Below are positions 10,002-46,817 of a stretch of DNA of 48,410 nucleotides, in pieces. The position numbers were made by a program, and so were the translations under genes. Source of the stretch: a virus; IMG/VR virus record IMGVR_UViG_3300025086_000047, positions 1 to 48,410 of that record; one strand, given 5' to 3'. Positions within the stretch are counted from its first letter, which is position 1, and every line of letters begins with the position of its first letter. The notes beneath the pieces are model-generated. The model saw only the letters and a list, made by a program, of their open reading frames with translations. It searched no databases and was not told the origin of the DNA.

Positions 10002-10005
10002 TTAA

Positions 10006-10341: not shown

Positions 10342-10383
10342 AAAAATTTTTGAAAAAAGCGTTTAAAATAAAAGGTGAATAAT

Positions 10384-10830: not shown

Positions 10831-10831
10831 T

Positions 10832-10939
10832 ATGACAAGGTGTAATTATCTCGATAAGTGGTTTGATGCCAAATCAAAAGAAGTAGATGAAAAAGAGTCA
10901 AAGTCAAAGAAATGTTTTGTTACAGGTGATAAGAAATGA
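10832..10939 (+). CDS. Mini-protein, 35 aa
   Basis: A 35-residue ORF starting MTRCNYLDKWFDAKSKEVDE and ending CFVTGDKK. It fills the gap between two tagged genes. GGTGAATAAT precedes the ATG, and its stop overlaps the next start as ATGA. The sequence pattern (MTRCNYL...F, then KCFV) suggests a tiny folded or metal-binding peptide. It lacks the tag. Confidence 0.6.
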   Translation: MTRCNYLDKWFDAKSKEVDEKESKSKKCFVTGDKK

Positions 10940-11250: not shown

Positions 11251-11627
11251 GTTGGAAAGATATACTAAAAACCATGAGTGAAGAAGACCGCAAGAAACTT
11301 ATGGAAGATACTGAAAGGTCTATGAAACCTTTGATGATTACAAGAGCGCACCAAAAGGGAGCATTGGGAGATAGGTGGCGTTCAATGAAAAGGGATTATA
11401 GGTTAATAAGTAAAGATAAGCCTATTATTGAATTTCTGCAAGATATAGATGACGAAAAGCCTCCTTTTGATGTTATTCACACAAAGAACACTTTCAAAAG
11501 AATGGTTGAAGAATTTATGTTAGAACAGGGAATAGGCAAATTCAAAGAAGAATACGAGAAAAACAAAAAAGAAGAATATGAAAATGCCCCAACATATAGT
11601 AGATGGGGAGAACCGCCTCACAAATAA
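11247..11627 (+). CDS. Tagged protein (MSWKDILKT), 126 aa
   Basis: The tag MSWKDILKT opens a 126-residue protein of mixed charge. The middle (KRDYRLISKDKPIIEFLQDI) and the following segment are helical. The last 20 residues are Lys/Glu-rich and then Tyr/Pro-rich. The family is unknown. The start is an ATGA overlap with the upstream stop; the ribosome site is GGTGATAAG. Confidence 0.72.
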   Translation: MSWKDILKTMSEEDRKKLMEDTERSMKPLMITRAHQKGALGDRWRSMKRDYRLISKDKPIIEFLQDIDDEKPPFDVIHTKNTFKRMVEEFMLEQGIGKFKEEYEKNKKEEYENAPTYSRWGEPPHK

Positions 11628-11640
11628 AGGGATTGAAGTC

Positions 11641-12543: not shown

Positions 12544-12770
12544 TGACATGGCAAAGTATTCTAAAGCGTCAAACTACGCAAAATGCCATTGATAACTTTG
12601 GTAAACAAAGAGATGTTTTGAAAGAATTAGATGAAATGGTTAGAAAGTTTCACGGTGAAGAAATGATTAGTGGTGAAGAGTTTGAAGACTTAGCCGGAGA
12701 ATATCATAGATTGCATAAGACCACAATGGATAGCATTAAGAGAATACTTGGAAGTTTAAGGAGGGCTTGA
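12543..12770 (+). CDS. Tagged small helical protein (MTWQSILKR), 75 aa
   Basis: A short all-helical protein that starts with the tag MTWQSILKRQ. The body (KQRDVLKELDEMVRKFHGEE ... EYHRLHKTTMDSIKRILGSL) reads as two amphipathic helices, probably a coiled coil. The start overlaps the stop of the preceding gene (TAATG). Function unknown. Confidence 0.7.
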   Translation: MTWQSILKRQTTQNAIDNFGKQRDVLKELDEMVRKFHGEEMISGEEFEDLAGEYHRLHKTTMDSIKRILGSLRRA

Positions 12771-12771
12771 T

Positions 12772-13143
12772 ATGAATTGGGAAGAAGTATTGAAGCGCAA
12801 CCAAGAACTTGAAGAAGTTGCTGTTAAACTAAAAAGGGCTTTAGAAAAACATCACGGCGTTTTGTTAAAGATAACGAAAGATACTGATTTATATGAAGAT
12901 ATAGAGCAAAGATATGAAATGTATGACGCATCGGTTTTAAATGATGACAAACTAAGAGAGGCTATGAAAAAACAATTTGATAGTTTCATGGAAGAGTTCA
13001 GCGACATTATAGAAAACACTAGCGATACTTTTGAGAAAAAAGCCGGAGGAGTTTCTTTTGGCGGTCATGGGGCTAACCCCGAACTATTCAACATAAGATA
13101 TGGTAAAAAGAGGAGGGATAAGAATGACAAAGAAAGCAACTAA
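12772..13143 (+). CDS. Tagged helical protein (MNWEEVLKR), 123 aa
   Basis: The tag MNWEEVLKRN is continuous with a long helix (QELEEVAVKLKRALEKHHGV). A second helical segment (REAMKKQFDSFMEEFSDIIE) follows, then a Gly-rich end. GGAGGGCTTGAT precedes the ATG. The 3' end overlaps the next gene by 20 bases. Function unknown. Confidence 0.7.
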   Translation: MNWEEVLKRNQELEEVAVKLKRALEKHHGVLLKITKDTDLYEDIEQRYEMYDASVLNDDKLREAMKKQFDSFMEEFSDIIENTSDTFEKKAGGVSFGGHGANPELFNIRYGKKRRDKNDKESN

Positions 13144-24076: not shown

Positions 24077-24267
24077 GTTGGGAAGAAGTGTTGAAAAAGA
24101 AAAAAGCAGGTAGGGCTACTGCTACTCATAACAGTAAAGGTGAGGAAAAAGACCGTTGCGCTAGAATTGCAGATAGGCCAAGTAAATACGGCTCAAAAGG
24201 AAGCGCATACAAATCGGGTGCAATTGTTCAATGTAGACAAGGGAAGATTTGGAGAGATATAAAATGA
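24073..24267 (+). CDS. Tagged mini-protein (MSWEEVLKK) with CARI...AYKSGAIVQC module
   Basis: The tag MSWEEVLKKKK is followed by a module with CARIADRPSKYGSKGSAYKS and GAIVQCRQGKIW. From memory, a similar YASGALVxCR module occurs alone in many large viruses and marine phages; I cannot verify it here. Two conserved Cys could bind a metal or form a disulfide. The module fused to the tag is one of the best examples of tag plus separate cargo. Confidence 0.7.
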   Translation: MSWEEVLKKKKAGRATATHNSKGEEKDRCARIADRPSKYGSKGSAYKSGAIVQCRQGKIWRDIK

Positions 24268-24530
24268 GTTGGCAAGAAGTTCTCAAGATTGAGAAAAATC
24301 TACGAGTATGGTTTGGACAAACTGCTCAAGGCGAAAAAGGAAAACCAAAAGTAAAGGGTTGGGTTTCTTGTCAATCTTGTGAAGATGATAAAGCAGGAGT
24401 AAAACCTTGTGGAAGAACAGATGCCTCTAAAGGAACTAAACAAAGATGTAGGCCGACTTGTGCCGCTTGTAAAACCTATAAGAGAAGAAAAGGTAATAAG
24501 AGAAGTAGAGGCAGGGGATTCACAAGATGA
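24264..24530 (+). CDS. Tagged Cys-rich basic protein (MSWQEVLKI), 88 aa
   Basis: I chose the ATG at 24264 (ATGA overlap); the frame opens five codons upstream. After the tag MSWQEVLKIEK come seven cysteines: CQSC, KPCGR, QRCRPTCAAC. The tail is extremely basic (KTYKRRKGNKRSRGRGFTR). The KPCGR...CRPT pattern recalls DUF5872-like viral proteins (from memory). A DNA-binding, metal-containing virion protein is inferred. Confidence 0.7.
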   Translation: MSWQEVLKIEKNLRVWFGQTAQGEKGKPKVKGWVSCQSCEDDKAGVKPCGRTDASKGTKQRCRPTCAACKTYKRRKGNKRSRGRGFTR

Positions 24531-24898
24531 GTTGGAAAAAAATATTAAAAACGCACTGTAATGAAAAAATGGATTGCGGTTGTGCTAAGTGTAGAGAGAA
24601 AACTAACAAGGCACTTGTAGGAAATCAAAAAAGAATTGATGTGGCTAAACCAAAAGGAAGAATAACAAGAGCAGATTTTGATAAACTTAGAGACGAAAAG
24701 AAAGCCATGAAGAGTGATGCTCAAATAGAAAAAGAAATACTCGCTGAAATTAAAAAAGAAGGTGGAGCATTAGGTATGAAAAACCTAAAAGCAATAGCCC
24801 CTCCTAAAGAATTAAAAAGAATTCTTGATGCTATGAAAAGAAAGAAAGTTATATTCATGCACAAAGATGGAGACATTTATACACACAGTCCGAGATGA
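24527..24898 (+). CDS. Tagged protein (MSWKKILKT) with Cys motif and winged-helix-like C-terminus
   Basis: The tag MSWKKILKTH leads into a Cys cluster (CNEKMDCGCAKC). The C-terminal half (IEKEILAEIKKEGGALGMKN then LKRILDAMKRKKVIFMHKDG) has the helix-helix-wing order of a winged-helix DNA-binding domain. The start is an ATGA overlap. A DNA-binding protein carried into the virion is a fair inference. Confidence 0.68.
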   Translation: MSWKKILKTHCNEKMDCGCAKCREKTNKALVGNQKRIDVAKPKGRITRADFDKLRDEKKAMKSDAQIEKEILAEIKKEGGALGMKNLKAIAPPKELKRILDAMKRKKVIFMHKDGDIYTHSPR

Positions 24899-24902
24899 TT
24901 TT

Positions 24903-25304
24903 ATGACTTGGCATATTATTCTTAAGCAACTAGAATGTCCTAGAGCAACACAAGACTTAATGCTCAATACTAAGAATAGAGATGCCGCAGTTAAAAATCC
25001 TAATATTAGATATGGCCCACTTAATCTCAACGACAAAAAATATTGGGAAGAATATGCTAAGAGATGGAAGACTACTGCTGATGTAGCAAAGAAATCTAAT
25101 TGTAGTAATTGTGTTGCTTTCGACATATCACCAAGAATGGATGAATGTATGCCACTAACTACTGATGATGATGGGCGTTTAGGATATTGTTGGATGCATC
25201 ATTTCAAGTGTCATTCAGCAAGAACTTGTTATACTTGGGCTAAAGGTGGCCCAATTGATGATGATAAAACATCTAAAGAAAATCAAATGAGGGGTAAAAA
25301 ATGA
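24903..25304 (+). CDS. Tagged HiPIP-like Cys-rich protein (MTWHIILKQ), 133 aa
   Basis: I chose the ATG at 24903 (MTWHIILKQ, a tag variant); the frame opens 12 codons earlier over the previous gene. The C-terminal part has CSNC, then DECMPL, then GYCWMHHFKCHSARTC and TWAKGGPI. This Cys/His pattern recalls small high-potential iron-sulfur-like proteins reported in marine phages (memory, unverified). At least six Cys could hold a cluster or zinc. The tag is absent from those stand-alone forms, as far as I recall. Confidence 0.68.
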   Translation: MTWHIILKQLECPRATQDLMLNTKNRDAAVKNPNIRYGPLNLNDKKYWEEYAKRWKTTADVAKKSNCSNCVAFDISPRMDECMPLTTDDDGRLGYCWMHHFKCHSARTCYTWAKGGPIDDDKTSKENQMRGKK

Positions 25305-25744
25305 GTTGGGAGGATATATTAAAGAATCCGCCACCGTTAGATGCTAACGATGAAAAAGAAATTCAAGATTTAATGCGCTTTAGAAACATGGATAGGCAAA
25401 CTGCCGAAAGAACGATTAGACGAAAAAATAAGAAAACAGGTCAAAGAAAACAACCCACTTATGAAGATTATATGCGTTCTAGAAAAGAAGAAGTTTTAAA
25501 ATTCAAAAGACGCTTTAAGAAAGTAGTCACCAATAAAAAGACAGGTAGAACTAAGACTGTTAAATATGGTCAAGCAGGGAAAGCCAAAGACGGCGGAGAT
25601 AGAATTAGACCAAATACTTCTAAGGGAGATGCTTATTGTGCTAGGTCAAATAAAATCAAAGGTAATTGGAGAAGCGACCCAAATAGCCCTAATAATCTAA
25701 GCCGTAAAAAGTGGAAATGTCATGGTAATAAATCCAGTAAATGA
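25301..25744 (+). CDS. Tagged DUF6321-like protein (MSWEDILKN), 147 aa
   Basis: It starts with a perfect tag MSWEDILKN. The C-terminal 60 residues (KGDAYCARSNKIKGNW ... LSRKKWKC) match the pattern of DUF6321-type viral proteins: a CAR motif, then R-K-x-W-K-C at the end. The middle is very basic. It seems to be a stand-alone viral domain with the tag added. The start overlaps the upstream stop as ATGA. It is the last gene before the portal. Confidence 0.72.
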   Translation: MSWEDILKNPPPLDANDEKEIQDLMRFRNMDRQTAERTIRRKNKKTGQRKQPTYEDYMRSRKEEVLKFKRRFKKVVTNKKTGRTKTVKYGQAGKAKDGGDRIRPNTSKGDAYCARSNKIKGNWRSDPNSPNNLSRKKWKCHGNKSSK

Positions 25745-25797: not shown

Positions 25798-27435
25798 ATG
25801 GCAGAAAAACGAAGACGGTTCTCTTTCACAAATCTTTTCAGGCGTACTACACCAAAACCTGCCGATAGGAATATTTACAACATGGGTATTCAAGAAAGGC
25901 AAAATAACTACATGATGACTGCCCCCATCATCTATTCTATGGTTCAACAATCAGTTATTGTTAGAACTTGTATAACTCAACTGAAGCAGGAAGTCTACAG
26001 AAGAGGCTATGAATGGGAAAAAGCATACGAAGCACTTTGTAATGATTGCGGTAAGAAACACACTACTCCTGCTACAGAATGTATTAGGTGTGGCTCAACT
26101 AATTTGAAAGTTCCCGATGTCAAACAGTTAGAATATGCTGAAAAATTCTTAGAAGGTTATGTCAATTCATCCGAGCAATTGTTTATTGATGTCTTAAAAG
26201 AACTAGAGGATGATTTGAATATCATGGATGACGCATACATAGTTATGGTCAAAGAATATTTCTTAGACGGTAATGGTAAAATTAGAATGCATCGTGTTAA
26301 AGAAGTATATCGTGGCGACCCTGTTACCATGTTTATTTATGCCGATGAAGATGGTGTTAAAGGAACAAAGGGTTTCACTTGTGTTCATCATAGAGATGCT
26401 ATCTCTACAGAACCTCATGACACTTGCGAAACTTGTGGCTCTCCTCTTAAGCCAATACACTATGTAAATAGAGCAAAGGGAGATGACCAATATTTCCTAA
26501 AAGGAGAAGTCTTACATTTTAGTAAGTATAGTCCTTCTAGGCTTTATGGTTTCTCTCCTGTAATTACACTTTACAATCACATTATGACTTTAATTGCTAT
26601 GGAAAACTATGTCAATTCAGCCTACACTAAGAGCAGAATGCCAAGAGGTTTACTGGCCGTTCAAACTAGAAACATGGATTCAATGAGAGCCTTTTGGAGA
26701 GGAGTAAAAGAAAAGATGGAACAAGACCCTCATTTTATTCCAGTAATGGGAATAGAAGCAGAAGGTGGTAAGGGTGCTGTTGAGTGGATTAAGTTCATGG
26801 ATAGTCTAAAAGAGATGGATTATATTTCTGTTAAGGATGATTTGAGAGATAGAATATCAGCATTTTATGGAGTAAGTAAAGTTTTCATGGCTGATAATAC
26901 TACAAGTGGTGGATTAAATAATGAAGGCATGCAGATACTTGTAACTAATAGGGCAGTTCAAATGGCTCAAAATGTTTACAATAATTATGTATTTCCATAT
27001 CTTGTTAAGCAATTTGGCATTACTGACTGGAAACTTAAACTTCCTCCAAGTGAAGAAGAAGATGAAATTGCGGGATTAAGAAAGAAAGAAATCGAAGTTA
27101 ATATTGCGGCTTCAATAAAGAACTTAGGTTTTGAAGTTGATATGGATGAGGATGGTAACTTTACTTACAATAAACCCGAACCCGAACCAACGGAGGGAGA
27201 GCCACAAGAAGGTGGAGAAGAACAAATAGAAGGCGACCCGTATGCGGGAACTAATATAGATGCTTCACAAATGGGGCAGATGCAGGAACAGATGATGTCT
27301 CAACCACAAGAAAATCCGGCAACAACTAGAAATAAACCTTCTATGAGTACAGGGCCGGATAAAAGATTAACTGGATTACCTCAAGATGCAGGTAATCAAA
27401 ATGTAGATACACGAACCGAAAGGAGGACAGGTTAG
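25798..27435 (+). CDS. Portal protein with two zinc-ribbon insertions
   Basis: The dodecameric ring at the head vertex through which DNA enters and leaves. The length (545 aa), position after TerL and sequence pattern (GEVLHFSKYSPSRLYGFSPV, DLRDRISAFYGVSKVFMADN, then GGLNNEGMQILVTNR) match phage portals of the SPP1/HK97 type. Two Cys clusters are inserted: CNDC...CIRC near residues 81-101, and CVHH...CETC near 199-222. These are not usual in portals. The C-terminal 80 residues are Gln/Pro/Glu-rich and probably disordered. Confidence 0.88.
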   Translation: MAEKRRRFSFTNLFRRTTPKPADRNIYNMGIQERQNNYMMTAPIIYSMVQQSVIVRTCITQLKQEVYRRGYEWEKAYEALCNDCGKKHTTPATECIRCGSTNLKVPDVKQLEYAEKFLEGYVNSSEQLFIDVLKELEDDLNIMDDAYIVMVKEYFLDGNGKIRMHRVKEVYRGDPVTMFIYADEDGVKGTKGFTCVHHRDAISTEPHDTCETCGSPLKPIHYVNRAKGDDQYFLKGEVLHFSKYSPSRLYGFSPVITLYNHIMTLIAMENYVNSAYTKSRMPRGLLAVQTRNMDSMRAFWRGVKEKMEQDPHFIPVMGIEAEGGKGAVEWIKFMDSLKEMDYISVKDDLRDRISAFYGVSKVFMADNTTSGGLNNEGMQILVTNRAVQMAQNVYNNYVFPYLVKQFGITDWKLKLPPSEEEDEIAGLRKKEIEVNIAASIKNLGFEVDMDEDGNFTYNKPEPEPTEGEPQEGGEEQIEGDPYAGTNIDASQMGQMQEQMMSQPQENPATTRNKPSMSTGPDKRLTGLPQDAGNQNVDTRTERRTG

Positions 27436-31907: not shown

Positions 31908-32263
31908 CATGGGATTATTATGAAGAAGGTAAAGAGTTTACCATAAAGAAAGAAGAAAAAGTAAAGAAGAATATATTAGACACACTGGATAAAAAACAGA
32001 CTAAGCGTTTAAAGAAAATACTACAATCAACACAACCAACTGAATTTTTTGGTCAAGACTTTACTAAGTTAGGCGAATTAATTACTGCACTAAAAGATGT
32101 AGAATTAGTTAAGTCCGATAAGAAACTTACAAAGAAAATGAAGTCTATGGATGAACGGAATGTAGATATAGTCGCTTCGGCTACCGAACTTCGTAAGGAC
32201 TATGAATTGCTTTACAGACAACTAAGAGATTTAGTATATCCAAAGAAGGAGGAAAAGAGATGA
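31904..32263 (+). CDS. Hypothetical protein with tag-like start (MTWDYYEEG), 119 aa
   Basis: The N-terminus MTWDYYEEGKEF has the Met-Thr-Trp start but lacks the hydrophobic pair and Lys of the tag, so it is a degenerate or independent case. The body is a Lys-rich helical protein (KVKKNILDTLDKKQTKRLKK). It overlaps both neighbours by a few bases. Confidence 0.65.
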   Translation: MTWDYYEEGKEFTIKKEEKVKKNILDTLDKKQTKRLKKILQSTQPTEFFGQDFTKLGELITALKDVELVKSDKKLTKKMKSMDERNVDIVASATELRKDYELLYRQLRDLVYPKKEEKR

Positions 32264-32547
32264 CATGGTGGAGCATAATAAAAATTAGCGAAGATGCTAA
32301 ACGCTCTATTATGGATAGGTTTGGGTCTAAAAAGGAAAGAAGACCTAAAAAATCCATAGGGCAATCTTTTGGAACTAAAGGAAAAGCCGCTACTTCGGCA
32401 ACTAAACCTTGTCAAATGTGTGGACAAAAAAAATCTATGCGAAATATAAATTATTATCCTCCCATGAAAGCACTATGTAATTCATGTGCTAAGTTCAAAT
32501 ATGGGGAAGATTACAAATCAAAGAAGACAAAGATAGAACCGGATTGA
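32260..32547 (+). CDS. Tagged zinc-ribbon protein (MTWWSIIKI), 95 aa
   Basis: The tag variant MTWWSIIKIS is followed by a basic linker and then one zinc ribbon: CQMCG near residue 50 and CNSC near residue 73. The last 20 residues are Lys-rich. The start is an ATGA overlap. Another example of the tag joined to a metal-binding module. Confidence 0.7.
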   Translation: MTWWSIIKISEDAKRSIMDRFGSKKERRPKKSIGQSFGTKGKAATSATKPCQMCGQKKSMRNINYYPPMKALCNSCAKFKYGEDYKSKKTKIEPD

Positions 32548-32552
32548 TAAAT

Positions 32553-32801
32553 ATGAGTGAAGAAAATACAATTAATGAAGAACTACTTGAGATAATCAAG
32601 GCACTAACTTCTAAGATAGAAAGTTTAGAGAGAGCAGTTTACAATGACGATAACCTACTAATGAAGTCCGGTTTTGTTGTTGTTGATAGCCCTACTCCAA
32701 GAATGAACAACGGAACCATTGGTGGTTCTCCATTGAAAGATGTTGGAAATATGGAATGGAAAGACATTCATAAGATGGTAGAAAAAGTAGGTGGACAATA
32801 A
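32553..32801 (+). CDS. Small protein with C-terminal WKDIHKM motif, 82 aa
   Basis: I chose the ATG at 32553 (MSEENTINEELLEI); the frame opens three codons earlier. A short coiled coil (EELLEIIKALTSKIESLERA) is followed by a Pro/Gly linker and the C-terminus GNMEWKDIHKMVEKVGGQ. The W-x-D-I-H-K-M end also closes the protease/scaffold protein. It may be a second scaffold-like protein that recognises the same partner as the N-terminal tags. Confidence 0.7.
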   Translation: MSEENTINEELLEIIKALTSKIESLERAVYNDDNLLMKSGFVVVDSPTPRMNNGTIGGSPLKDVGNMEWKDIHKMVEKVGGQ

Positions 32802-33346: not shown

Positions 33347-35896
33347 ATGCCACTCCTTATTGAGAAGGATAAGTCAATATCCACAGATATTCTAAGACTC
33401 TTTGAAAGAACGAGAGTTGCTTATCTTTCAGCAAGAACCGACCCAAAGGAATACGGTTCTAAATGGAGAAACGCAGTAAATAAAATTAAAGAAGCATATG
33501 AAATGACAGATGCTCTTTCAAAAGAACTCAAGGATTATATTGATGAAGACTTATTAGAATCAAATGATGTTTCCGACCCAACAACAAACAATGCCGAAAA
33601 ATTATATCAAGGAATTAAAGCACTAAGGTATTCTTCGGAAGAAGTTAGTGACCCCTTCGCTAAAAAATTCAAAGGTAGTGTATTAGAAGCATTATTAGAA
33701 TCACCCGAACTTATGATTAAGTTTGTTCACTATGCTATTAGAGAAGATGACAAGGCATTACCTAAAGAAGCCTATTCAATTAAAGACATGAAGCCCGATG
33801 ATATTACTGAAGGCTTAACTGGACTAGACTTAGAAGTTGATGATGTTGCACTTTACATCATAGAGCATTATGGCGACGATAAAGATTCTAAAAAGGTGGA
33901 GTCTAAGGTGAAGGCCGCTATGAATATGCTAGAATTAATATTCTTATCTAAGAATACTAAAGAAGAGTGGCTTGAACTAGAAGATATAGACACAGATGCA
34001 GACGAAACTAAAGCCAAGGATGAAACTGATAAAGATAAAAAAACTATCTTGAAAGAAAAGAAATCCGATGAAGAGAAAGCCCAAAGTGATTTTATTATTC
34101 CTAACAAACCAATGTATAGGATATTTACAATAGAAGATATGAATGAACTAAAAGGATTTAGTGGAGAATACTATGTCCAAGAAAAATATGATGGATTTAG
34201 AATACAACTTCATAAAATAGATAAGAATATTAAAGTCTATGATTATACAGGTAAAGATATATCTAGTAAGTGTAAAGATGCAATAGAAGAATTAGAAAAG
34301 AAACAATTTGGAGACTGTATACTAGATGCTTCCTTGGTTTTATTTGACGGAGAAGATTCTCTTAAAAGAAAAGAAGCGGTAGAATACTTAGAAGGAAAGA
34401 GAGAAGGCAAGGCTAGAATCCATGTGTTTGACATTATGAGACACAACGAAGAAAATCTCATGGAAGATACATTACAAAACAGAATGCAAATAATGTTCAA
34501 TAACTATTCTATACATTCTAGTGAAGCCTTAACATTCCCATCTAAAAAAGATACAAGAGTGGCTGATAGTCTAAAGGATGTTGAAGAATATGCTAAGAAG
34601 ATTATGGAAATGCCTACTGCTGAAGGTGCTATGATTAAAGACTCTACATCAACTTACTACTTAGGAACAAAGAAAAACCCTAAGTGGATTAGATGGAAGC
34701 CTTTTGTTGAGTTAGATTTAATTGTACTTGATAAGAAAAAGAGTGGTTCTAACTTTTCTTACAAGTTAGGGGCGGGGCCAGTTGAAGAAGATGGTGAAAA
34801 AATAGAAGGCGTAAACTATCTTAATGTAGGTAGTGCTACTAATACTAAAGTTTCAGCAGATGTCGGAGAAGTTGTTAGAGTTTCTATTGATAAGGTAAAA
34901 GAAGTTAAGGGCAAGCCAGTTGTTTATTCAGCGAAGATAAATGAAATTGCTGAAAGTAAGGCACCGGATAAGTTAGTTACACTACAAATGCTAATCAACG
35001 ATACTGATAAGTCTTTGAAATATAATGTAGAAGAAGTAGAGAAAGGTATTGTAGTTTCTGACCATATTCACGGCGAAGCCAATATTATAATCAAAGGAGA
35101 TATGGATGGTTTTACTATCTATGGATTTGAAGAAGACAATCTAATGGCTAAGAATGCACTAATGGATTTAGACCTGTGGAAAGAACAGGCAGAAGAAATA
35201 ATGAAAACAAAACAATCTAAACTTACTGTTGCTATATTTAATTTCTTAAAGGAAAAGGGCGCACAAGTACCGAAAGTTGTTCATAATTTCTTAGTTAAAA
35301 ATCACAAAAAAGAATATCAAGACATACTAGAAAGTAAAGAAAGTCGAGTTAAAGACTGGTTTGAAAACAGGGATGGAATATCTTTTGATGTTAAAACGAA
35401 AAAGTTGTTTGCTGAACATGATAAGATATTGATGGACACCATTAAGAAAGAGTATGAAACTCCCGAAAAATACAGAAGTGGTGAGTTTAAGATATATCTT
35501 AGAGATGATGATAACCTAAATATTGTTATGAAGTTGGGCGATGAAAGCATAAACTGGATGGTTAGATTAGATAGCAAAGATGACATCTTTGAATTGTTTG
35601 GTAAAGCCGGTAAGTTCCCTGCTATTGTTGCTAAGAATATATCTAAGCGTAAAGTCATTGATAGTGGAGATGTTAAATTAGGCGTTCAAAAGGAAGGCTA
35701 CCATGAGTATTTCTTAGATGGTAATAAGTTTGAAACTAAACTTCATGTTAGAATGCTTGAAGTTAAAGGAAAAAGAATGTGGCTAGCATGGACAGGCTAT
35801 GAACAAAAACCTGCTGATACTGATAGTGATAGAGGACTATGGAATATTTATGAAGATAAATACAGTAGTCTTGAATTACCTCCAAAAGACGACTAA
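33347..35896 (+). CDS. ATP-dependent DNA ligase-like protein in head module, 849 aa
   Basis: The core at residues about 265-455 matches the nucleotidyltransferase domain of ATP-dependent ligases: motif I EKYDGFR with K280 as nucleophile, then VFDIM (motif III-like), motif IV EGAMIKDS (426-433) and motif V WIRWKPF (447-453). The usual DGE motif reads LDASLV, so the metal-binding Glu is replaced by Ser. An OB-fold-like part follows. The N-terminal 260 and C-terminal 300 residues are extra; the C-terminus weakly recalls LigD phosphoesterase modules. Its place between portal and protease is unusual. No ribosome site is visible. Confidence 0.75.
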   Translation: MPLLIEKDKSISTDILRLFERTRVAYLSARTDPKEYGSKWRNAVNKIKEAYEMTDALSKELKDYIDEDLLESNDVSDPTTNNAEKLYQGIKALRYSSEEVSDPFAKKFKGSVLEALLESPELMIKFVHYAIREDDKALPKEAYSIKDMKPDDITEGLTGLDLEVDDVALYIIEHYGDDKDSKKVESKVKAAMNMLELIFLSKNTKEEWLELEDIDTDADETKAKDETDKDKKTILKEKKSDEEKAQSDFIIPNKPMYRIFTIEDMNELKGFSGEYYVQEKYDGFRIQLHKIDKNIKVYDYTGKDISSKCKDAIEELEKKQFGDCILDASLVLFDGEDSLKRKEAVEYLEGKREGKARIHVFDIMRHNEENLMEDTLQNRMQIMFNNYSIHSSEALTFPSKKDTRVADSLKDVEEYAKKIMEMPTAEGAMIKDSTSTYYLGTKKNPKWIRWKPFVELDLIVLDKKKSGSNFSYKLGAGPVEEDGEKIEGVNYLNVGSATNTKVSADVGEVVRVSIDKVKEVKGKPVVYSAKINEIAESKAPDKLVTLQMLINDTDKSLKYNVEEVEKGIVVSDHIHGEANIIIKGDMDGFTIYGFEEDNLMAKNALMDLDLWKEQAEEIMKTKQSKLTVAIFNFLKEKGAQVPKVVHNFLVKNHKKEYQDILESKESRVKDWFENRDGISFDVKTKKLFAEHDKILMDTIKKEYETPEKYRSGEFKIYLRDDDNLNIVMKLGDESINWMVRLDSKDDIFELFGKAGKFPAIVAKNISKRKVIDSGDVKLGVQKEGYHEYFLDGNKFETKLHVRMLEVKGKRMWLAWTGYEQKPADTDSDRGLWNIYEDKYSSLELPPKDD

Positions 35897-35916
35897 TGGT
35901 TTAAAATAACCGTGTG

Positions 35917-35946
35917 TATTATATATCAAAAGGAAATTTTTTCTTT
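35917..35946 (+). promoter_or_regulatory. Internal promoter before protease/capsid genes
   Basis: TATTATATATC (about 35917-35927) is a strong TATA box. TTG at 35947 is about 25 bases downstream and ATG at 35956 slightly further. AAGGA lies at 35930. A separate promoter would allow high expression of the capsid genes. A short T-run (35937-35948) may also end upstream transcripts. Confidence 0.5.
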
Positions 35947-37173
35947 TTGAGCGAAATGTCATCGGCAGTATTAGCAACGAGAAATGATGGGTTCTCCATC
36001 CTCAAGGCTAGAACTGATGATTTAATGATTGGTGGCTATGCTAGCATAGAGATAGTTGATAAGCAAAACGACTTAATCACACTAAAGGCACTTAATGAAG
36101 CAGTTACTAAATTTATGGGAGACTCTAAATTTAGAAATGTTATGACAAACCATTCCAATGTTCAAGTTGGAGAAGTTGTAGATTCTTATAGAGACACTAC
36201 AGGAAGACTTTGGAAATCCGAAGTAGATGATGTAGGTTTCTTTGTAGTAATTAAACTACGAGACGATATAGAAAAAGCCAAAGAAGTTGGCAGAAACATT
36301 CGCAAAGGGTCATTAAGGTCTTTTAGCATAGGAGGCCAAGCCCTCCAAAAAGTAAAGAAAAGCCATGAAAACTTGGGTGAGTATAATGAAATCAGCAAGT
36401 TAGAGTTGCATGAAATTACTATATGCGAAAAAGGAATTAATCCCGAAGCGAGGTTCGATATTTTGAAACAAGATAAAGGAGACATAAACATGAGTGAAAA
36501 ACTAGAAAAAGCATTAGCGGAGTTAGATACTTTGCTAGAAGAAGTAAATACGCTTCGTAAAGAAGAAGAGATAGACCTGAAAGAAGAAGAGATGGCTGAT
36601 GAAACAGAAATGGGCGACTACGGTATGGACAAGGAAGATGAAGAAGACATGGAAATGGCTGATGAAACAGAAATGGGCGAATACCAAGATGATGAAACCA
36701 AGGCTTACTTAAGAACTCTTGATGGTGCAGGAAACCAAATTGGAGAACCTGCTGACCGTATTGTTATTAACAACGGTAAGCCAACTTCATCCGATATGCC
36801 AGTCGTAAAGGCTTTTGGTAACGGTGAATTTGACACACTAGATTTGTCAGTTGGAAACATCGAGAAGGCTTACGAGGCTTTCCGACAAGAGCAGTTAGAA
36901 ACTCTTGCTTATGATAACCTAAAGAAATCATTTGAAGCAAGATTCGCTACTGAAATTACATCAAGAGAAAACACAATCGCAAAGCAAAACTATGATGCCG
37001 CTAGCGAGATTGCTTCTCTTAAGGATGAATTTACACAACTAAGGAAATCATTGACCGCAGAAAAGGAAACTATTCTAAAGGCTCAAGAAGAATCCGCAGT
37101 AAAACTCCCAAGTATGGATGAAATGGCTAACATGGATTGGTCGGACATTCACAAAATGGTAGGAGGAATTTAA
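35947..37173 (+). CDS. XkdF-like prohead protease with acidic scaffold tail
   Basis: The N-terminal 175 residues match XkdF-type prohead serine proteases: GYASIEIVDKQNDLITLKAL, then TNHSNVQVG with H69, then RSFSIGG with S125/S127. Residues after about 180 form an acidic scaffold-like region with a duplicated MADETEMG[DE]Y unit and coiled coils. The C-terminus is MANMDWSDIHKMVGGI, with a tag-like motif. I place the start at TTG 35947; ATG 35956 is possible, and the GTG at 35914 lies upstream of the TATA box. It should cleave scaffold and head proteins during maturation. Confidence 0.85.
   Translation: MSEMSSAVLATRNDGFSILKARTDDLMIGGYASIEIVDKQNDLITLKALNEAVTKFMGDSKFRNVMTNHSNVQVGEVVDSYRDTTGRLWKSEVDDVGFFVVIKLRDDIEKAKEVGRNIRKGSLRSFSIGGQALQKVKKSHENLGEYNEISKLELHEITICEKGINPEARFDILKQDKGDINMSEKLEKALAELDTLLEEVNTLRKEEEIDLKEEEMADETEMGDYGMDKEDEEDMEMADETEMGEYQDDETKAYLRTLDGAGNQIGEPADRIVINNGKPTSSDMPVVKAFGNGEFDTLDLSVGNIEKAYEAFRQEQLETLAYDNLKKSFEARFATEITSRENTIAKQNYDAASEIASLKDEFTQLRKSLTAEKETILKAQEESAVKLPSMDEMANMDWSDIHKMVGGI
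36591..36682 (+). repeat. Duplicated acidic segment in protease tail
   Basis: ATGGCTGATGAAACAGAAAT occurs near 36591 and again near 36655, giving two MADETEMG units 21 residues apart. The near-identity at the DNA level suggests a recent internal duplication. Confidence 0.75.
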
Positions 37174-37174
37174 G

Positions 37175-38512
37175 ATGACAGGATATATTAATACAATCGC
37201 AGACTTAGAAGCAAGCACATATGGAATAAACAATCTACCTGCCGGTAATGCTCTTTTGAAGCAAGCCGGTGCTATTGGTGGAATACACACAGGACACGAT
37301 GGTTCTCCGGCATTCTCCGGTAGTGCTGTTAGTGATGTATCTGCACTATACAATATTGTTTACGGACAAAAAGTATGGTCAATGTTGAATAGAGAAGTTA
37401 ATGCTCTTTCAATGATTTCAAAAAGACCTTACAGTTCTAGCGGATGGAGAGTTCTACAATCACGACCTGCCGGTGGAAGCGGTAACTTGTTTACTGTTGA
37501 TGCAACAGGTAATGCAACACTAGGAGAATTAGGTTCGGATAACCCAAGAGCAGACCTTATTGGTGGTGTTCCTGAAAATGCAGGACTTTCAACTGCGGCT
37601 GACGGACTTGGCCCAATTGCACCAACTTATGCACAACTCAACATGAGTCCTAAAGTAGTTGCACACCAATTTGATTTCAGTGAACTTGCTATGGAAATGG
37701 CACAAATTGATGATGGTATTGGCGATATTAGAGCGCAAATGCGTGAAGATATGGGTAAGCACCATGCAGAAGTTCAAAACAAAATGTTGGTTATGCCACT
37801 AGAGCATTATGGTGAATCATCCGCTATGCCAAATATCGGTAACAACTATACTTCTCTAAACAAGGTTATTACTTCAAGAGCAGAACTACTAGCAATTGAT
37901 GGCGGAGTTATCGCAACTGATACCGCTTCCGCTTCTAACGCACTAGGAAAAATTTACGGTAGAGAGAGATTTACTGCCGCTTCTTTCCTTGATGCAGAAG
38001 TAGACTTTGGTAGTGGATATGCTAGTGGTGATGTTCGTTCATTAACCCTAACAAGACTTAACGATATGATTAGAAACCTAAGACTATCCGGCGGTTCTCC
38101 AAAGGTTATTCTAACTGGATATGATACTATTCAAGCAATCGCTGACTTGCTACAAAGTCAAGAAAGATTCATGGATAGAAAAGAAATCGTACCAACCGTA
38201 AACGGTGTTAGAGGAACAAAGGGTCAAGAAGTTGGATTTAGAGTTGCTACTTATTACGATTTGCCACTTATTCCTGTAAAGGACATGTGCCAAACAGGTA
38301 GTGCTTCAACAAAACTAAGCGACTTATTATTCCTTGATACAGACCACCTATGGCTATCCGTTATGAAGCCAACTCAATACTTTGAAGATGGTATTGCTAA
38401 CGGAAATCCATTCGGTGTTGGAACTCTAGGTAACAGGGCATTATACAGAACAATTGGTGAAGTAGGATGTTCATTCTTTAGAGGACAAGGAAAAATAACA
38501 AACATACAATGA
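37175..38512 (+). CDS. Major capsid protein, HK97-fold
   Basis: The shell protein of the head, 445 residues, directly after the protease as in HK97-type phages. The pattern fits the fold: an N-terminal arm, a long helix (QFDFSELAMEMAQIDDGIGD), and P- and A-domain segments (RLSGGSPKVILTGYDTIQAI; GFRVATYYDLPLIPVKDMCQ). Its codon and residue composition (Gly, Ala and Ser rich) differs from the Lys/Glu-rich neighbours, as expected for a structural shell. AGGAGGAATTTAAG precedes the ATG. The assignment rests on context plus pattern, not on an alignment. Confidence 0.88.
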   Translation: MTGYINTIADLEASTYGINNLPAGNALLKQAGAIGGIHTGHDGSPAFSGSAVSDVSALYNIVYGQKVWSMLNREVNALSMISKRPYSSSGWRVLQSRPAGGSGNLFTVDATGNATLGELGSDNPRADLIGGVPENAGLSTAADGLGPIAPTYAQLNMSPKVVAHQFDFSELAMEMAQIDDGIGDIRAQMREDMGKHHAEVQNKMLVMPLEHYGESSAMPNIGNNYTSLNKVITSRAELLAIDGGVIATDTASASNALGKIYGRERFTAASFLDAEVDFGSGYASGDVRSLTLTRLNDMIRNLRLSGGSPKVILTGYDTIQAIADLLQSQERFMDRKEIVPTVNGVRGTKGQEVGFRVATYYDLPLIPVKDMCQTGSASTKLSDLLFLDTDHLWLSVMKPTQYFEDGIANGNPFGVGTLGNRALYRTIGEVGCSFFRGQGKITNIQ

Positions 38513-39565: not shown

Positions 39566-39871
39566 ATGGCGGGCATAGGCGGTTGTAGAAGTAGTGGCGT
39601 ATTAGGGGCAAGTGCGATTGTAAGTAGTGAAAACGCTAAGTTAATTAGCATTCATGCGGCAATTACAATTGCTTCTAATGCGGCAGTTACAATTAAGGTT
39701 TTTAATGGAACGGATAATACCGGAACAGAAGTAGCGAGAATACATCATAGCGTTACAGGACATTATAATCTTGAATACGATATGCATGGGGTTCTGTGTA
39801 GGAGTGGAATATTCTTGGAAGTAACAGAAGGAGGAACTTCTACGGCCAATGTTTCTGTCGAGTTCAACTGA
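39566..39871 (+). CDS. Beta-rich small structural protein, 101 aa
   Basis: A Gly/Ala/Ser-rich protein (MAGIGGCRSSGVLGASAIVS) with predicted beta strands, no coiled coil, and two Cys. It resembles jelly-roll-like or decoration proteins of phage heads. AGGTGATAGT precedes the ATG. A small hairpin TGGAG-tcttt-CTCCA lies upstream (39531-39545). Confidence 0.62.
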   Translation: MAGIGGCRSSGVLGASAIVSSENAKLISIHAAITIASNAAVTIKVFNGTDNTGTEVARIHHSVTGHYNLEYDMHGVLCRSGIFLEVTEGGTSTANVSVEFN

Positions 39872-39880
39872 GGTTTTATT

Positions 39881-40288
39881 ATGGCGGCACTAAGTCAAGA
39901 CACAAGATTAGTTATGACAATTTTATTTGTCGGAACAGTTAGCGGAGCGAATGTATATTTCTATTCTGCTTATGGATTAAATTTCCCTTACGGAGCATTA
40001 GCACATTCTGTTCTGTTTGGACTTATTACGGTGGGTGGAATAATGGTTATGAAAGCATTGTTTGACCTATCACTAAACGATAAGATTGAGATACGATTAC
40101 TAGACAGACAGATAGAAAATCATTTTCAAAGACTACAAAGAGAAGAACAAATTAAATCTAAACTACAAGATAGTATGAAGCAGTTCGGTACAGTAAGGCG
40201 TGAAAACTGGCGAAGTGGGGTCATGGCTACTGAAGACTACGACGATAATACAATAGGAAATGAATTCTTAGCAACTATACAACAATAG
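39881..40288 (+). CDS. Membrane protein with two spans and coiled-coil tail, 135 aa
   Basis: Residues about 9-30 (LVMTILFVGTVSGANVYFYS) and 37-60 (GALAHSVLFGLITVGGIMVM) are hydrophobic, so two transmembrane helices are predicted. The rest is a charged helix (KIEIRLLDRQIENHFQRLQR) with polar end, predicted on the same side as the N-terminus. It is the first of two membrane proteins directly before the GTPase gene. Confidence 0.7.
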   Translation: MAALSQDTRLVMTILFVGTVSGANVYFYSAYGLNFPYGALAHSVLFGLITVGGIMVMKALFDLSLNDKIEIRLLDRQIENHFQRLQREEQIKSKLQDSMKQFGTVRRENWRSGVMATEDYDDNTIGNEFLATIQQ

Positions 40289-40299
40289 GTTGTGGTTGA

Positions 40300-40518
40300 T
40301 TGGTCTTTGGCGACATAATGGGCTTTAGTGAGTCCGACTATGTATATAATCAAAGTCGGGCGCACTCGGCAGATATGTTCTTCATAAAAATGAAGATGTA
40401 TTTTTGGGGAAGTTGTGTTGGATTATCAGCATTTTTGATAGGCAATATCATGGGAGTCTTTGACATCAATATAATGGGTTGGATTATAGCGAGGGCAAAA
40501 GATATTTGGGGGCATTAA
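40300..40518 (+). CDS. Small single-span membrane protein, 72 aa
   Basis: The TTG at 40300 is the favoured start; ATG at 40318 is an alternative. One hydrophobic segment (MYFWGSCVGLSAFLIGNIMG) lies near residues 32-52, followed by an amphipathic end (NIMGWIIARAKDIWG). It stops immediately before the GTPase ATG, so coupling is likely. Confidence 0.62.
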   Translation: MVFGDIMGFSESDYVYNQSRAHSADMFFIKMKMYFWGSCVGLSAFLIGNIMGVFDINIMGWIIARAKDIWGH

Positions 40519-41181
40519 ATGTCCATAATGACGGGCTTCGCCATACTAGTTGGTGAAGCAATAATAGGCTTTTACAAAAAAGTTCATGCAATTAATTTTG
40601 GAGTTTATGGTTCTACAATGGTTGGTAAAACAACCCTAAGCCACCAACTTAGAACAAGGGGGGAAGTTCCCACAATAAAAGACAGAACCGTTGGTTTACA
40701 TAGAGCCACTAGAAAGAATGTTAAGATTGATGGTAGTTCTCACACAATTAAGAGTGCTGACTTGGGAGGGGAAGCAATCTACTGGAAAGAATGGGTTAAA
40801 GATATGCAAAAGCGTAAAGTAAGATATATTATTTTTATGATAGACCACAGGCATTTAGATTCCCCTTCTAATTTAGACCATCAACTAGCATGGAAATTTT
40901 TAGTAGATACTATTGTAGCAGATAGATGGCCTTCGGGCAAAAAGAAAAAAGAAACAGACTATCCTATGGCAGTTGGTATATGGGGAAATAAATATGATAT
41001 GTGGGGAGAGAAGTATAAAAGTGACAATCCTATAGACAAACATGAAATATTTGAACCTTTTAAGTATGGAATGAGGCAGTTAAATGACAAGGGAATACCT
41101 TGTTTCAAATATATAGTATCGGCTAAGTCCGACCCTGAGATGGTGTATAAAGGAATAACCACTATGATAAAGGATTATTGA
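40519..41181 (+). CDS. Arf-like small GTPase, 220 aa
   Basis: A small GTP-binding protein of the Ras/Arf superfamily. All five G motifs are present: G1 GSTMVGKT (31-38), G2 Thr57 in KDRTVGL, G3 DLGGE (81-85), G4 NKYD (157-160) and G5 VSAK (about residues 202-205). The DLGG form and the strand pattern after it are Arf-like. At the position of the Arf catalytic Gln there is Glu85, so GTP hydrolysis may be slow. A hydrophobic N-terminal helix (residues 3-19) could contact a membrane. Two membrane-protein genes lie directly upstream. Such a GTPase is unusual in a virus structural operon. Confidence 0.83.
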   Translation: MSIMTGFAILVGEAIIGFYKKVHAINFGVYGSTMVGKTTLSHQLRTRGEVPTIKDRTVGLHRATRKNVKIDGSSHTIKSADLGGEAIYWKEWVKDMQKRKVRYIIFMIDHRHLDSPSNLDHQLAWKFLVDTIVADRWPSGKKKKETDYPMAVGIWGNKYDMWGEKYKSDNPIDKHEIFEPFKYGMRQLNDKGIPCFKYIVSAKSDPEMVYKGITTMIKDY

Positions 41182-41191
41182 GGAATGAAAG

Positions 41192-41824
41192 ATGTATCAG
41201 CAACCGAATTTGATAAACACGCAACAAGCAAAGAACGCTTTTTTACCTAAACTGCAACAATATAGAGCAGTTGGGCCAATTGAAGATTATAAGTTTGATG
41301 CGTTAAAACCAAAGAAGCAAATGAAAGAAATAAGAAAAGTATTGTTACCGGAAAAGAAAAAGGTTCTCTTCATAAGATATGGTCACAAGTTTAACTTTAA
41401 AGATAGATGTGTAGTTTGTGGAACTCATCAAATTTGGGAAGCAGGAGATTACTTAAGGCCACCAATACCACTAGATAAAGTAGAGAAAGGAAGGCCACTA
41501 AGAGGAACTTACTGTCAAAAACATGCGGCTATCCATAAACAAATGGAAATGCTACAACAACAAATATTAGCAGATGAACACGGACTAGATTTTAAAGCGT
41601 TTATTCCTAAAGCCAAAATGCCTAATATGTTAAAAAGACAACAATTAAACAACTTAACGAAAGAAGATGTTATGAGGTTGACTAGCATGGGATGGACTAT
41701 AACGCCACCAACACCGGCTACCGATGCAGAAACACAAATGGCAGAAATAGTTAGATTGATGGCGGAAATACAACTAAATACAGAAAGAGTTAATTATCTA
41801 ATTAAAGGAGAACAGGGTGAATGA
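41192..41824 (+). CDS. Zinc-finger protein, 210 aa
   Basis: The centre holds CVVC near residue 73 and YCQKH near residues 109-113, one probable zinc site (three Cys plus His). The N-terminal part is Gln-rich and the C-terminal part is helical (DVMRLTSMGWTITPPTPATD, then TQMAEIVRLMAEIQL). Possible head-completion or connector role by position. It starts 10 bases after the GTPase gene. Confidence 0.65.
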   Translation: MYQQPNLINTQQAKNAFLPKLQQYRAVGPIEDYKFDALKPKKQMKEIRKVLLPEKKKVLFIRYGHKFNFKDRCVVCGTHQIWEAGDYLRPPIPLDKVEKGRPLRGTYCQKHAAIHKQMEMLQQQILADEHGLDFKAFIPKAKMPNMLKRQQLNNLTKEDVMRLTSMGWTITPPTPATDAETQMAEIVRLMAEIQLNTERVNYLIKGEQGE

Positions 41825-41825
41825 T

Positions 41826-42494
41826 ATGGGAATTTTAGGAACAAGTAACGGAACAGTCTTGGCATCAGTACAAGCACAAAGCGACCAACAATTCAAGAAT
41901 GTAAATAATTTACTTTCTTTACAAGATAATCATGTTGAGGAGTTTTTTCAATATCACGGTCAAATGTTTTTAACACAAATAGAGAAACTTATGGAAGATG
42001 TTGTGGAAAGAGTAGTTAGTAAGATGTTGGCTAAATTACAATTCACAACTGATTCTACAACAGGAATGTTAAGAATACACAATGATGCTATGAGAGAATT
42101 TGAAAAGATAACTCAAGAAAATATTGAATTAGACATTCAAAAGATATTAGATGCGGCAATCAATACTGAAGTTGTAAATCAAAGAAAGTTAGCAAAACAA
42201 CAATACTTAGAATCTCAAGGATTTAGCGGTGGTGGTGGCATGCAACAAATGGCACAACCAACAGCAGGTATGGCAATAGCAGGACTAACAGGACAAACTC
42301 AACAATATCAACAAATGCAAGGTGCTGTGAATAATGGTAGTGGCTATCCTATTCCACCAACGGGAACTGATAATTATGGAAGACCATATTGGATAGATGC
42401 TCAAGGACAAATGAGTTACGAACCTCCACAAAGCGGATTAGGTTTAGGTAGTGCTATACAAAAAGGTGCGGCTTGGGCTAAATGGTTAATGTGA
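41826..42494 (+). CDS. Hypothetical structural protein, 222 aa, Gln/Gly-rich C-terminus
   Basis: I chose the ATG at 41826, because GGTGA (41816-41820) is its ribosome site. The N-terminal 130 residues are helical (QIEKLMEDVVERVVSKMLAK) with an amphipathic pattern. The C-terminal half is Gly/Gln/Met-rich, probably disordered (GGGGMQQMAQPTAGMAIAGL). No family is recognised. Confidence 0.65.
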   Translation: MGILGTSNGTVLASVQAQSDQQFKNVNNLLSLQDNHVEEFFQYHGQMFLTQIEKLMEDVVERVVSKMLAKLQFTTDSTTGMLRIHNDAMREFEKITQENIELDIQKILDAAINTEVVNQRKLAKQQYLESQGFSGGGGMQQMAQPTAGMAIAGLTGQTQQYQQMQGAVNNGSGYPIPPTGTDNYGRPYWIDAQGQMSYEPPQSGLGLGSAIQKGAAWAKWLM

Positions 42495-44347: not shown

Positions 44348-45466
44348 ATGGCAATAGCATCATCCCCAAGCGACTACACTTCTATTGATGTAGATTATTC
44401 AACAGGAAAAGGCTACTATACGGACAAAGGAGCAGTATCGGATATGCTACAGGTTCCTGCTTTTAGTGGTTCTACTTATCCTTCTCAAGCACAAGTAGGT
44501 TCTATAATAAAAACAATAGAAGGTATTGTAGATGAAAAGGTAAAAAGGTCTTATAGGCCAATCATTCACAAAGATGAATACCATAACTTTGAATTTATGA
44601 ATCACCCAATGCAAACTTACTACGGTGGCTATGTTGGTTTTGTTCAATTAACTACTATGAAAGTAAAGAAGATAGTTTCTCTTAAAGTATGGCAAGGAAA
44701 TAGTTATTTAGAATTGGCATCGGCTCAAGCAAGCGTCACACTACACCCCGATGATTTTCATAGGCTTAGAAGCATAACATTACAATTGCCTAATAGCGGA
44801 GATTCATTTATTTTATATCACCATGCCGAAGGTGCAATGTCAGCACACAATACATTCGATAGTAGATTTGGAGCAAAGACTACTGCTAGAGATATTTGCC
44901 ATTTAATTAATGAAGAATTCCCTGCTAATACTGCTCAATTTACAGGAGCAAATAGAGAAAAGGAGAGAACTTCTTCTCCTAATAGTCTAAGTATAAGTGA
45001 TTTCTTTTATGCTTCTATTGACCCCGATAATGGATATAGAATTAATATTTCAAGTTTGTTAGCGGGCGAAGACGGTTCGGGATGCACAATAACACTTGCA
45101 GATAAAGCAGGACAAGACTCACAATCAACTTCCGAAGCATTTACAGATAAACAAGATATGAAGAGATTAGGAAGTTTTTGGAAGATAGGAGATGAAGGAA
45201 GAATATTTTTCTTAAGAGATTATCCATATCATACTCAAAATTCTATAATAGCAACTTATGTTGCGGGTGATGGTAGAGTTCCTTCTAGCATACATAAGGC
45301 TACAACAATGTTAGTTGCGGCTGAATTATTAAGACACGATGACCAAACTATTATGATTGCTGAAACTGGTGGCAATATATCTACTAAAGAAAAGTATGAT
45401 ATTTTAACAACTGAAGCCAACGAAATCTTAAAGGGCAAAGGCGACCTCGTTTACTTATTGGAGTGA
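44348..45466 (+). CDS. Head-tail adaptor-like protein, 372 aa
   Basis: The two ends look like an HK97 gp6/SPP1 gp15-type adaptor: an N-terminal helix (VGSIIKTIEGIVDEKVKRSY) and a C-terminal helical block (SIHKATTMLVAAELLRHDDQ then STKEKYDILTTEANEILKGK). A long beta-rich insertion lies in between (residues about 80-290), making it much larger than the usual 100-120 aa. The adaptor assignment is an inference from pattern and position. Confidence 0.6.
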   Translation: MAIASSPSDYTSIDVDYSTGKGYYTDKGAVSDMLQVPAFSGSTYPSQAQVGSIIKTIEGIVDEKVKRSYRPIIHKDEYHNFEFMNHPMQTYYGGYVGFVQLTTMKVKKIVSLKVWQGNSYLELASAQASVTLHPDDFHRLRSITLQLPNSGDSFILYHHAEGAMSAHNTFDSRFGAKTTARDICHLINEEFPANTAQFTGANREKERTSSPNSLSISDFFYASIDPDNGYRINISSLLAGEDGSGCTITLADKAGQDSQSTSEAFTDKQDMKRLGSFWKIGDEGRIFFLRDYPYHTQNSIIATYVAGDGRVPSSIHKATTMLVAAELLRHDDQTIMIAETGGNISTKEKYDILTTEANEILKGKGDLVYLLE

Positions 45467-45470
45467 TTAT

Positions 45471-46817
45471 ATGTCTTGGATGAATATTATTCATAAGGCC
45501 AAAACAATAAGACAAGAAACAGCACCCAAAACAGGAAACAGACTAGTACCTACTTCATTATTAGGTGGCTTACCTCCTAGGGATGTTCCATCACTTAATG
45601 AAAATGTGAATAGAGATAATAAAATACAAGACCAAATTAGAAGAAATATAGAAGTAGAAACTAAAAATGTAAGAGACAAAATAGCGGAACAACAGTATTT
45701 AATTCAGCAAGAAAAGCGTGGAGAAAGAATACTCGCTGACGGAACTAAGGCAAATACTAGAAACAACCCCGCATATATCCGAGCAAGAAATGATGAAATA
45801 AAACGATTAGACGCAGAAAAAGGTAGAATAGAAGCAGGTGTTAGACAAAAATCTGGTTTAAAACAAAGGCAAGCCTCTAAGTTAGCAAGAGGTGGAAAAA
45901 ATAATTGGAAAGATGTGTTACGAACTGAAGGAAATAAAGCCCCTGCTCAAAGTGTAAGGCAAACTACAGAAAATGTTCCTAAACCTATGGGTGATGTTGC
46001 ACTACCACCCGTTGAAGGACAACAACCAACTAAAGACCCATTAGTAGGTTTTGCTCAAGAAAGGGGCTTAATGCCTCAAACCACGCAAAATGTTCCTAAA
46101 CCTACAGGTAATGTTCCTATAAATAAACCTCCTAGTAACTTGTTACCTAGAGATGCACAAGGTAATGTTATATCTGCAAAAACTCCTACTAAACCAACTC
46201 AAAATGTTGAGTTACCTAATGTTCCACAACAAACTCAACAAGAAGTTACACAAGAAGCAACACAACAGGCTTCACCACCAACTCCTCAACAAGGACAAAG
46301 AACTGGCCCACCTCCTAAAAAAATGACTACAGCGCAATTAAATCAACAAGCACAACAAAGAAGACAACAACAATCTAACAATCCTCCTCCTCCTCCTAGC
46401 GATGCTCAAGGTAATCCTATTCCTCCAAAAGAAATTCCTAATCTCAATCAACAGTTGATACAACAGAATAAAAGAATGAATGAAAAATATTTACGGGAGT
46501 TAGGAAGAACAGCAACAACTCCTAAACAGCGAAGAAAGGATGCTAAGGCACAGACTAAACAACAAAAGGCTCAAAGAAGACTGGCAAGAGATAGACAAAA
46601 ACTAGAAGAAAAAGAAGCAAAGCGTAAAGCAAAACAAAATCCTAGAGGCGGTGGACAACTAGTTCCTAGAGGAACTGGGCGTAGGCAAAATCCGGCATTA
46701 GTTCCTAGAGGAACTGGGTTTAGACAAAATCCGGTATTAAGGCCAAAACAAACTGGTGTAAAAATAGGAAAGAGCGATGAACTTTCAAAATCAATTAAAA
46801 ACATACTAAGGAGATGA
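45471..46817 (+). CDS. Gln/Pro-rich disordered protein with tag-like motifs, 448 aa
   Basis: The start MSWMNIIHKAK is a tag variant, and NNWKDVLRTEGNK near residue 144 is an internal tag-like copy. The protein is low-complexity: Asn-Val-Pro repeats (QNVPKP twice), Gln-rich and Pro-rich tracts, and two copies of a LVPRGTGxRQNPxL unit near the C-terminus. Much of it is predicted disordered, with a basic end. A linker or DNA-binding virion protein is possible. Confidence 0.68.
   Translation: MSWMNIIHKAKTIRQETAPKTGNRLVPTSLLGGLPPRDVPSLNENVNRDNKIQDQIRRNIEVETKNVRDKIAEQQYLIQQEKRGERILADGTKANTRNNPAYIRARNDEIKRLDAEKGRIEAGVRQKSGLKQRQASKLARGGKNNWKDVLRTEGNKAPAQSVRQTTENVPKPMGDVALPPVEGQQPTKDPLVGFAQERGLMPQTTQNVPKPTGNVPINKPPSNLLPRDAQGNVISAKTPTKPTQNVELPNVPQQTQQEVTQEATQQASPPTPQQGQRTGPPPKKMTTAQLNQQAQQRRQQQSNNPPPPPSDAQGNPIPPKEIPNLNQQLIQQNKRMNEKYLRELGRTATTPKQRRKDAKAQTKQQKAQRRLARDRQKLEEKEAKRKAKQNPRGGGQLVPRGTGRRQNPALVPRGTGFRQNPVLRPKQTGVKIGKSDELSKSIKNILRR

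Follow-up and report, generated by a model that had tools for sequence, protein, structure and literature searches.

In the surface ocean, magroviruses rank with the most abundant viruses, and to our knowledge little is understood of how tailed archaeal viruses leave or enter their hosts. Arf proteins carry a Trp before the G3 motif (WDxGG), and SAK is not their usual G5. In giant viruses, proteins of the Rab/Ras type are host-derived accessories. MglA and Rup proteins are single-domain switches of prokaryotes; the archaeal Rup/MglA groups have been proposed as the nearest kin of Arf and SR-beta, and MglA lacks the Asp of G3 (PMC4316618).

We analyzed a window of 48,410 nucleotides (IMG/VR record IMGVR_UViG_3300025086_000047, positions 1 to 48,410) and compared it with related viral loci. 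Many marine archaeal tailed viruses carry a fixed five-gene set, built around a small GTP-switch protein, among their virion genes; in cells, switches of this kind serve to control membranes. A core and strongly conserved GTPase module in such a place would be unusual, in that a tailed virus would have a small-GTPase switch of its own. The module supplies named candidate genes for exit or entry and would extend the account of archaeal Arf-type GTPases by a viral branch.

The small GTPase and its relatives

The ORF at 40519–41181 (+ strand, 220 aa) is, judging by its motifs and modeled fold, a Ras-superfamily small GTPase, with GTP binding and hydrolysis predicted. It begins with a hydrophobic helix (residues 2–22; 40522–40584, + strand; hydropathy approximately 1.66 and also seen in the AlphaFold2 model), a predicted membrane or interfacial anchor, and continues as a Ras-like G domain. 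The original prediction that the five G motifs are intact was borne out: G1 is G31STMVGKT38, G2 is T57 within RTVG, G3 is D81LGGE85, G4 is N157KYD160, and G5 is SAK at 201–203. In all 55 aligned members, G31, G36-K37-T38, T57, D81-G83-G84, N157-K158-D160, and S201-A202-K203 are invariant, and G1 to G5 are kept throughout the family (motif counts from 156 unique sequences).

Four scans of IMG/VR showed that relatives are encoded at no fewer than 400 places in that collection. We used 198 loci; counted by GTPase gene, 171 of these are non-redundant, and the lowest identity to the window protein is approximately 60%. The Glu first noticed at the catalytic position is present in the window but is not a trait of the family, and we rejected it as a hallmark: 144 of the 198 loci encode Glu and 54 encode Gln. 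The residue changes twice on the GTPase tree; catalytic Glu therefore belongs to a lineage. As most members carry it, the protein may cycle slowly or depend on a partner.

The gene is under strong purifying selection (dN/dS 0.025–0.06), the lowest or nearly the lowest value among the late genes. In the first set of relatives, its product was the most conserved protein of the late operon (80–87% identity, versus 63–69% for the capsid protein); there are a few viruses whose capsid protein is closer to that of the window than their GTPase is. Single-sequence profile scores were weak, with E = 2e-4 for NCBIfam small_GTP and E = 0.005–0.03 for Pfam P-loop GTPases, below the curated cut-offs, and a phmmer search of the window protein against PDB sequences gave no matches. 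Consequently, the case for a small GTPase rests on the family and the fold. Strong purifying selection together with the small-GTPase fold predicted in silico argues that this is not a chance ORF.

The AlphaFold2 model was built from 55 diverse sequences (pLDDT 73, pTM 0.74); an earlier input of 31 near-identical sequences had given a pLDDT of 51 and was unusable. After the N-terminal helix, the model is a single alpha/beta domain whose strands and helices follow the usual Ras-like order. Its best fold matches in the PDB are Rab and Ras proteins (E approximately 1e-8, TM up to 0.75 on the target). In a viral structure library, the matches listed were nearly all Rab/Ras-like proteins of giant viruses, and none of the best 50 was labeled as a protein of a tailed phage or an archaeal virus. 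Among 50,697 phage records, no match covered more than 25% of the query. The rarity in tailed viruses that had been claimed from the sequence thus holds in both collections. One scan of a genome collection for homologs found only a viral contig of this group filed in a Maricaulis MAG (NZMJ01000024.1), likely a binning error.

The term “Arf-like” stands only in part. The family shares with the Arf group, and with SR-beta, a DxGGE/Q G3, a TIG-like switch I (RTVG), and an ANKxD G4; a predicted hydrophobic helix before the G domain may be a further common mark. It differs in that residue 80, where Arf has its Trp, is Ala and rarely Ser in the 55 aligned members, in its SAK G5, in its many Trp residues of its own, in the Glu of most members, and in a fold search that favors Rab and Ras. 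Profiles did not discriminate. One divergent member scored above the Pfam Arf (PF00025) cut-off, but so did E. coli and eleven other control genomes, and we rejected this match as proof of Arf membership. The SRPRB (PF09439) score was below its cut-off, and the top hit of a broad profile against PDB sequences was an Arf-like protein at an insignificant E = 0.024. The Rab/Ras proteins, including those of giant viruses, have the same fold, but their G3 is DTAG rather than DxGG, and the viral protein has no C-terminal Cys for a lipid anchor. Furthermore, its gene belongs to the late core of a tailed archaeal virus, whereas the giant-virus proteins are accessories. With MglA and Rup the viral protein shares the build of a prokaryotic single-domain switch; unlike in MglA, Asp81 is invariant in the aligned members, and no Roadblock/MglB partner domain was present among the neighboring proteins scanned. 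The family may be Arf-like or Rab-like: several sequence marks fit Arf, but the profiles and the fold do not decide between the two.

The five-gene module and the viruses that carry it

Two membrane-protein genes directly precede the GTPase gene, at the positions originally described. The first, tmA (39881–40288, + strand, 135 aa; identified by ORF call, hydropathy, profile, and alignment), has two predicted membrane helices (approximately residues 10–28 and 43–61; hydropathy 1.5–2.0), followed by a charged helical tail that has a conserved NEFLA.(L/I)Q peptide at its end. The second, tmB (40300–40518, + strand, 72 aa, TTG start; identified by ORF call, hydropathy, and profile), combines a conserved soluble N-terminus (GFSxSDYxYNxxRAHSAD) with one predicted membrane helix (approximately residues 37–55). 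Both proteins are strongly hydrophobic, and their helices are hydropathy predictions only. The three ORFs, all on the + strand and 11 and 0 nt apart, form an operon-like run. Next come g411 (41192–41824, + strand, 210 aa), with a conserved and predicted metal-binding Cys/His site of the CxxC...CxxH type (RCVVCG...GTYCxKH), and the coiled-coil protein g418 (41817–42494, + strand, 225 aa), with a helical N-terminal half, a Pro-rich part, and an invariant C-terminal AWAKWL. A WW-like domain considered for g418 was a visual resemblance only, and the window protein has no Pfam match.

The late-operon context proposed for these genes also proved correct. Upstream lie the portal (25798–27435), the prohead protease (35914–37173), and a Druskaviridae-like major capsid protein (37175–38512). 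The upstream border of the module is the conserved g396 (39566–39871, + strand), also found in viruses without the module; downstream is the connector-like g443 (44348–45466, + strand; PHROG 17057), common to halovirus HCTV-1 and the other module-minus viruses. Two enzymes were observed elsewhere in the window: a protein of 849 aa that contains an ATP-dependent DNA ligase domain, amid the head genes and directly before the prohead protease (33347–35896), and a protein of 615 aa that carries a NUDIX domain at its C-terminal end and whose gene immediately follows the large terminase (22078–23925).

Loci were collected with neighbor-gene profiles and with a capsid-protein scan ranked by likeness to HCTV-1, to reach viruses unlike the window. 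Co-occurrence of the GTPase with the two membrane proteins was confirmed and extends to five genes. Where a locus spans the capsid protein to g443, tmA, tmB, GTPase, g411, and g418 are all present in 142 cases, all absent in 34 (33 marine loci and HCTV-1), and mixed in none, some loci being overlapping pulls of one record. The tmA profile was found in 142 of the 142 module loci. In whole-record searches, each of 10 long module-plus records encoded one GTPase copy and 8 module-minus records (up to 94 kb) encoded none, bearing in mind that IMG/VR records may be fragments. One contig of 184,733 bp (IMGVR_UViG_3300021958_000021) holds two different modules, L057 and L077, and is probably a joined assembly of two viruses.

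One large protein occupies the place of the module in those module-minus viruses that we inspected. The idea that this protein of 600–1000 aa corresponds to g425 of the window found no sequence support. In HCTV-1, a single membrane protein, gp116, lies at the site. In a tree of the capsid protein, the module-minus viruses group as a single clade; gain and loss of the module look alike there because the outgroup branch is long. Given the all-or-none pattern and this single clade, the module is a stable, vertically kept unit, never seen broken.

As for the viruses themselves, they look like magroviruses, the viruses of Poseidoniales. Magrovirales (Aoguangviridae and others) have genomes of 84–110 kb, PolB, chaperonin, an HK97-type Druskaviridae-related capsid protein, and two opposed gene clusters, one for replication and one for the virion (PMC10768690, PMC12999244, PMC5332604). 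Our relatives of 84–98 kb match them in size, PolB, and, in many records, Cpn60. The window itself, a 48 kb record, shows the Druskaviridae-related capsid protein and two opposed ORF clusters and lacks PolB and Cpn60. No mention of the GTPase module was found in the open-licence magrovirus literature searched, although an earlier mention is possible. PolB is in two pieces in most module-plus records (G009–G012, G014, G018); G015, G016, and the module-minus records have it as a single piece. A figure legend on Aoguangviridae names PolB-NTD/CTD (PMC10768690), and the two-piece PolB of module-plus records is a lead toward that family.

A terminal motif on neighboring proteins

Additional genes lie within the module in some viruses, at 18 of 167 tmB–GTPase junctions and 28 of 162 GTPase–g411 junctions. 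None were found at the g396–tmA, tmA–tmB (0 of 164 interrupted), or g411–g418 junctions. Among the 49 inserted ORFs, 47 match an M(x)WxxILK-type pattern near their start, and one more, recognized by eye, reads VWKDILK. The bodies of these proteins are diverse, with a GNAT-like fold in one case (E = 0.003) and others unmatched; by eye, inserts at L012, L026, L056, L080, and other loci appear GNAT-like, nucleotidyltransferase-like, or HExxH-like. Homing endonucleases, which we had considered as the source of the gaps beside the GTPase, were rejected, as the inserts are W-tagged proteins of other kinds.

The motif reaches well beyond the module. In the window, 14 terminal motifs were counted, where shuffling predicts 0.12. 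The motif M(x)W..[IV][LIV]K is shared by a dozen small proteins that are unrelated to one another, their N-termini being mostly M[NST]WxxILK; the tagged genes lie at 9663–13143, 24249–25744, 32260–32547, and 45471–46817. A C-terminal form, W[SK]DIHKMV, is found on a scaffold-like small protein (32544–32801) and on the prohead protease, where it recurs across module-plus and module-minus loci. In both kinds of loci together, the late (+) strand holds 304 tagged ORFs and the − strand 0.

On the simplest reading, the tag would be a docking peptide by which cargo of various kinds enters the prohead. The analogy is with the capsid-targeting sequence of phage T4, likewise one short conserved N-terminal peptide on unrelated, fast-changing proteins encoded near head genes (PMC3012670). 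The sequence here is different, a related motif sits at the C-terminus of the prohead protease, and packaging of the candidates is presumed. In the open-licence literature searched, we found no paper joining capsid targeting and archaeal viruses.

Possible roles of the module

Judged from sequence and the structural model, the GTPase would most likely control a device that the virus itself builds in the host membrane. An exit or other late membrane step is the likeliest use, with a place in the virion or in ejection close behind. Our tentative preference is for a membrane-anchored, GTP-dependent docking switch that would work with tmA and tmB, as a virus-made membrane complex, in a late membrane step, probably exit. 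The evidence that leads us there is the presence of five genes all or none, the low dN/dS, the N-terminal helix joined to a Ras-like fold, the hydrophobic and never separated tmA and tmB, and the absence from module-plus records of a membrane pair found in their sister viruses.

The GTPase, presumably expressed late, would be held at the cytoplasmic side of the host membrane by a predicted N-terminal helix. There, tmA and tmB may form a membrane platform, with g411 and g418 as putative soluble or peripheral partners. By analogy with SR-beta and Arf, which recruit partners to membranes, GTP loading might recruit or open the complex. Its use would come late, in virion release or in a membrane assembly step just before release.

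The sister-virus pair consists of a one-helix protein (approximately 70 aa) and a two-helix protein (approximately 140 aa) with a charged helical tail, encoded at the end of the late cluster, a place where lysis genes often lie. Examples of this holin-like pair are at G001:6015-6915 (L254) and G002:36727-37373 (L260). The two-helix protein was found in 7 of 11 module-minus records, in 0 of 15 long module-plus records, and not in the window; its one-helix partner was found in 4 of the 11 and in none of the others. In two module-plus records read through, tmA and tmB are the clear late-strand membrane proteins. The sister-virus pair (approximately 71 and 139 aa) resembles tmB and tmA in sizes and build, but profile comparison detected no homology between the two pairs, and the idea of tmA as a homolog of the two-helix protein found no support. 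Neither pair matched known holin families. One membrane pair thus seems to have been swapped for another, with the GTPase added. This swap is why we lean toward a late membrane or exit role; as the viruses fall in two clades, it is a single contrast, suggestive only, and possibly a coincidence. A broader proposal is a GTP-switched membrane device in which a virus-owned GTPase, acting together with two membrane proteins and two further partners, would govern exit or entry; the device would have replaced the holin-like pair in one large magrovirus lineage. This is conceivable but doubtful. The position of the module speaks against exit, as it lies amid head and connector genes and not at the end of the late operon.

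That same position between head-decoration and connector genes would suit a module belonging to the virion neck or to a complex that is ejected, with tmA and tmB entering the membrane of the new host at entry and the GTPase carried in to work at that place. The HCTV-1 membrane protein gp116 at the same site, the cargo-like genes flanking the GTPase, and a weak match of a g418 relative to a head/packaging (virion-structure) PHROG (E = 0.005) also point this way. However, GTPase, tmA, tmB, g411, and g418 lack the W-x-x-I-L-K tags of the presumed cargo, and the sister viruses, which lack the module, form heads of the same kind, so that we consider this role somewhat unlikely.

The tags raise another reading, in which the module is a membrane platform for assembly or cargo loading and the GTPase sets the moment at which W-tagged cargo is loaded or the prohead closes. 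Inserts, nearly all of them tagged, enter the module only directly beside the GTPase, and the C-terminus of the prohead protease has the related motif. However, module-minus viruses also have W-tagged genes and a tagged protease; the tag system therefore does not need the GTPase. The inserts may merely mark a tolerant spot. Such a loading platform is unlikely.

It is less probable still that the GTPase imitates a small GTPase of the host, or competes with one, and thereby alters the archaeal cell surface or membrane traffic. Small GTPases do occur in archaea (PMC4316618), and the switch regions of the viral protein are strongly conserved, but the constant company of four viral genes suggests that its partners are viral, and the one scan of a genome collection led only to the viral contig in a MAG. 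Finally, the below-cut-off single-sequence scores could fit another P-loop NTPase or a non-functional relic, a reading that is highly improbable and largely refuted by the GTP-specific NKxD and SAK kept family-wide, the PDB fold matches at E < 1e-7, and the low dN/dS.
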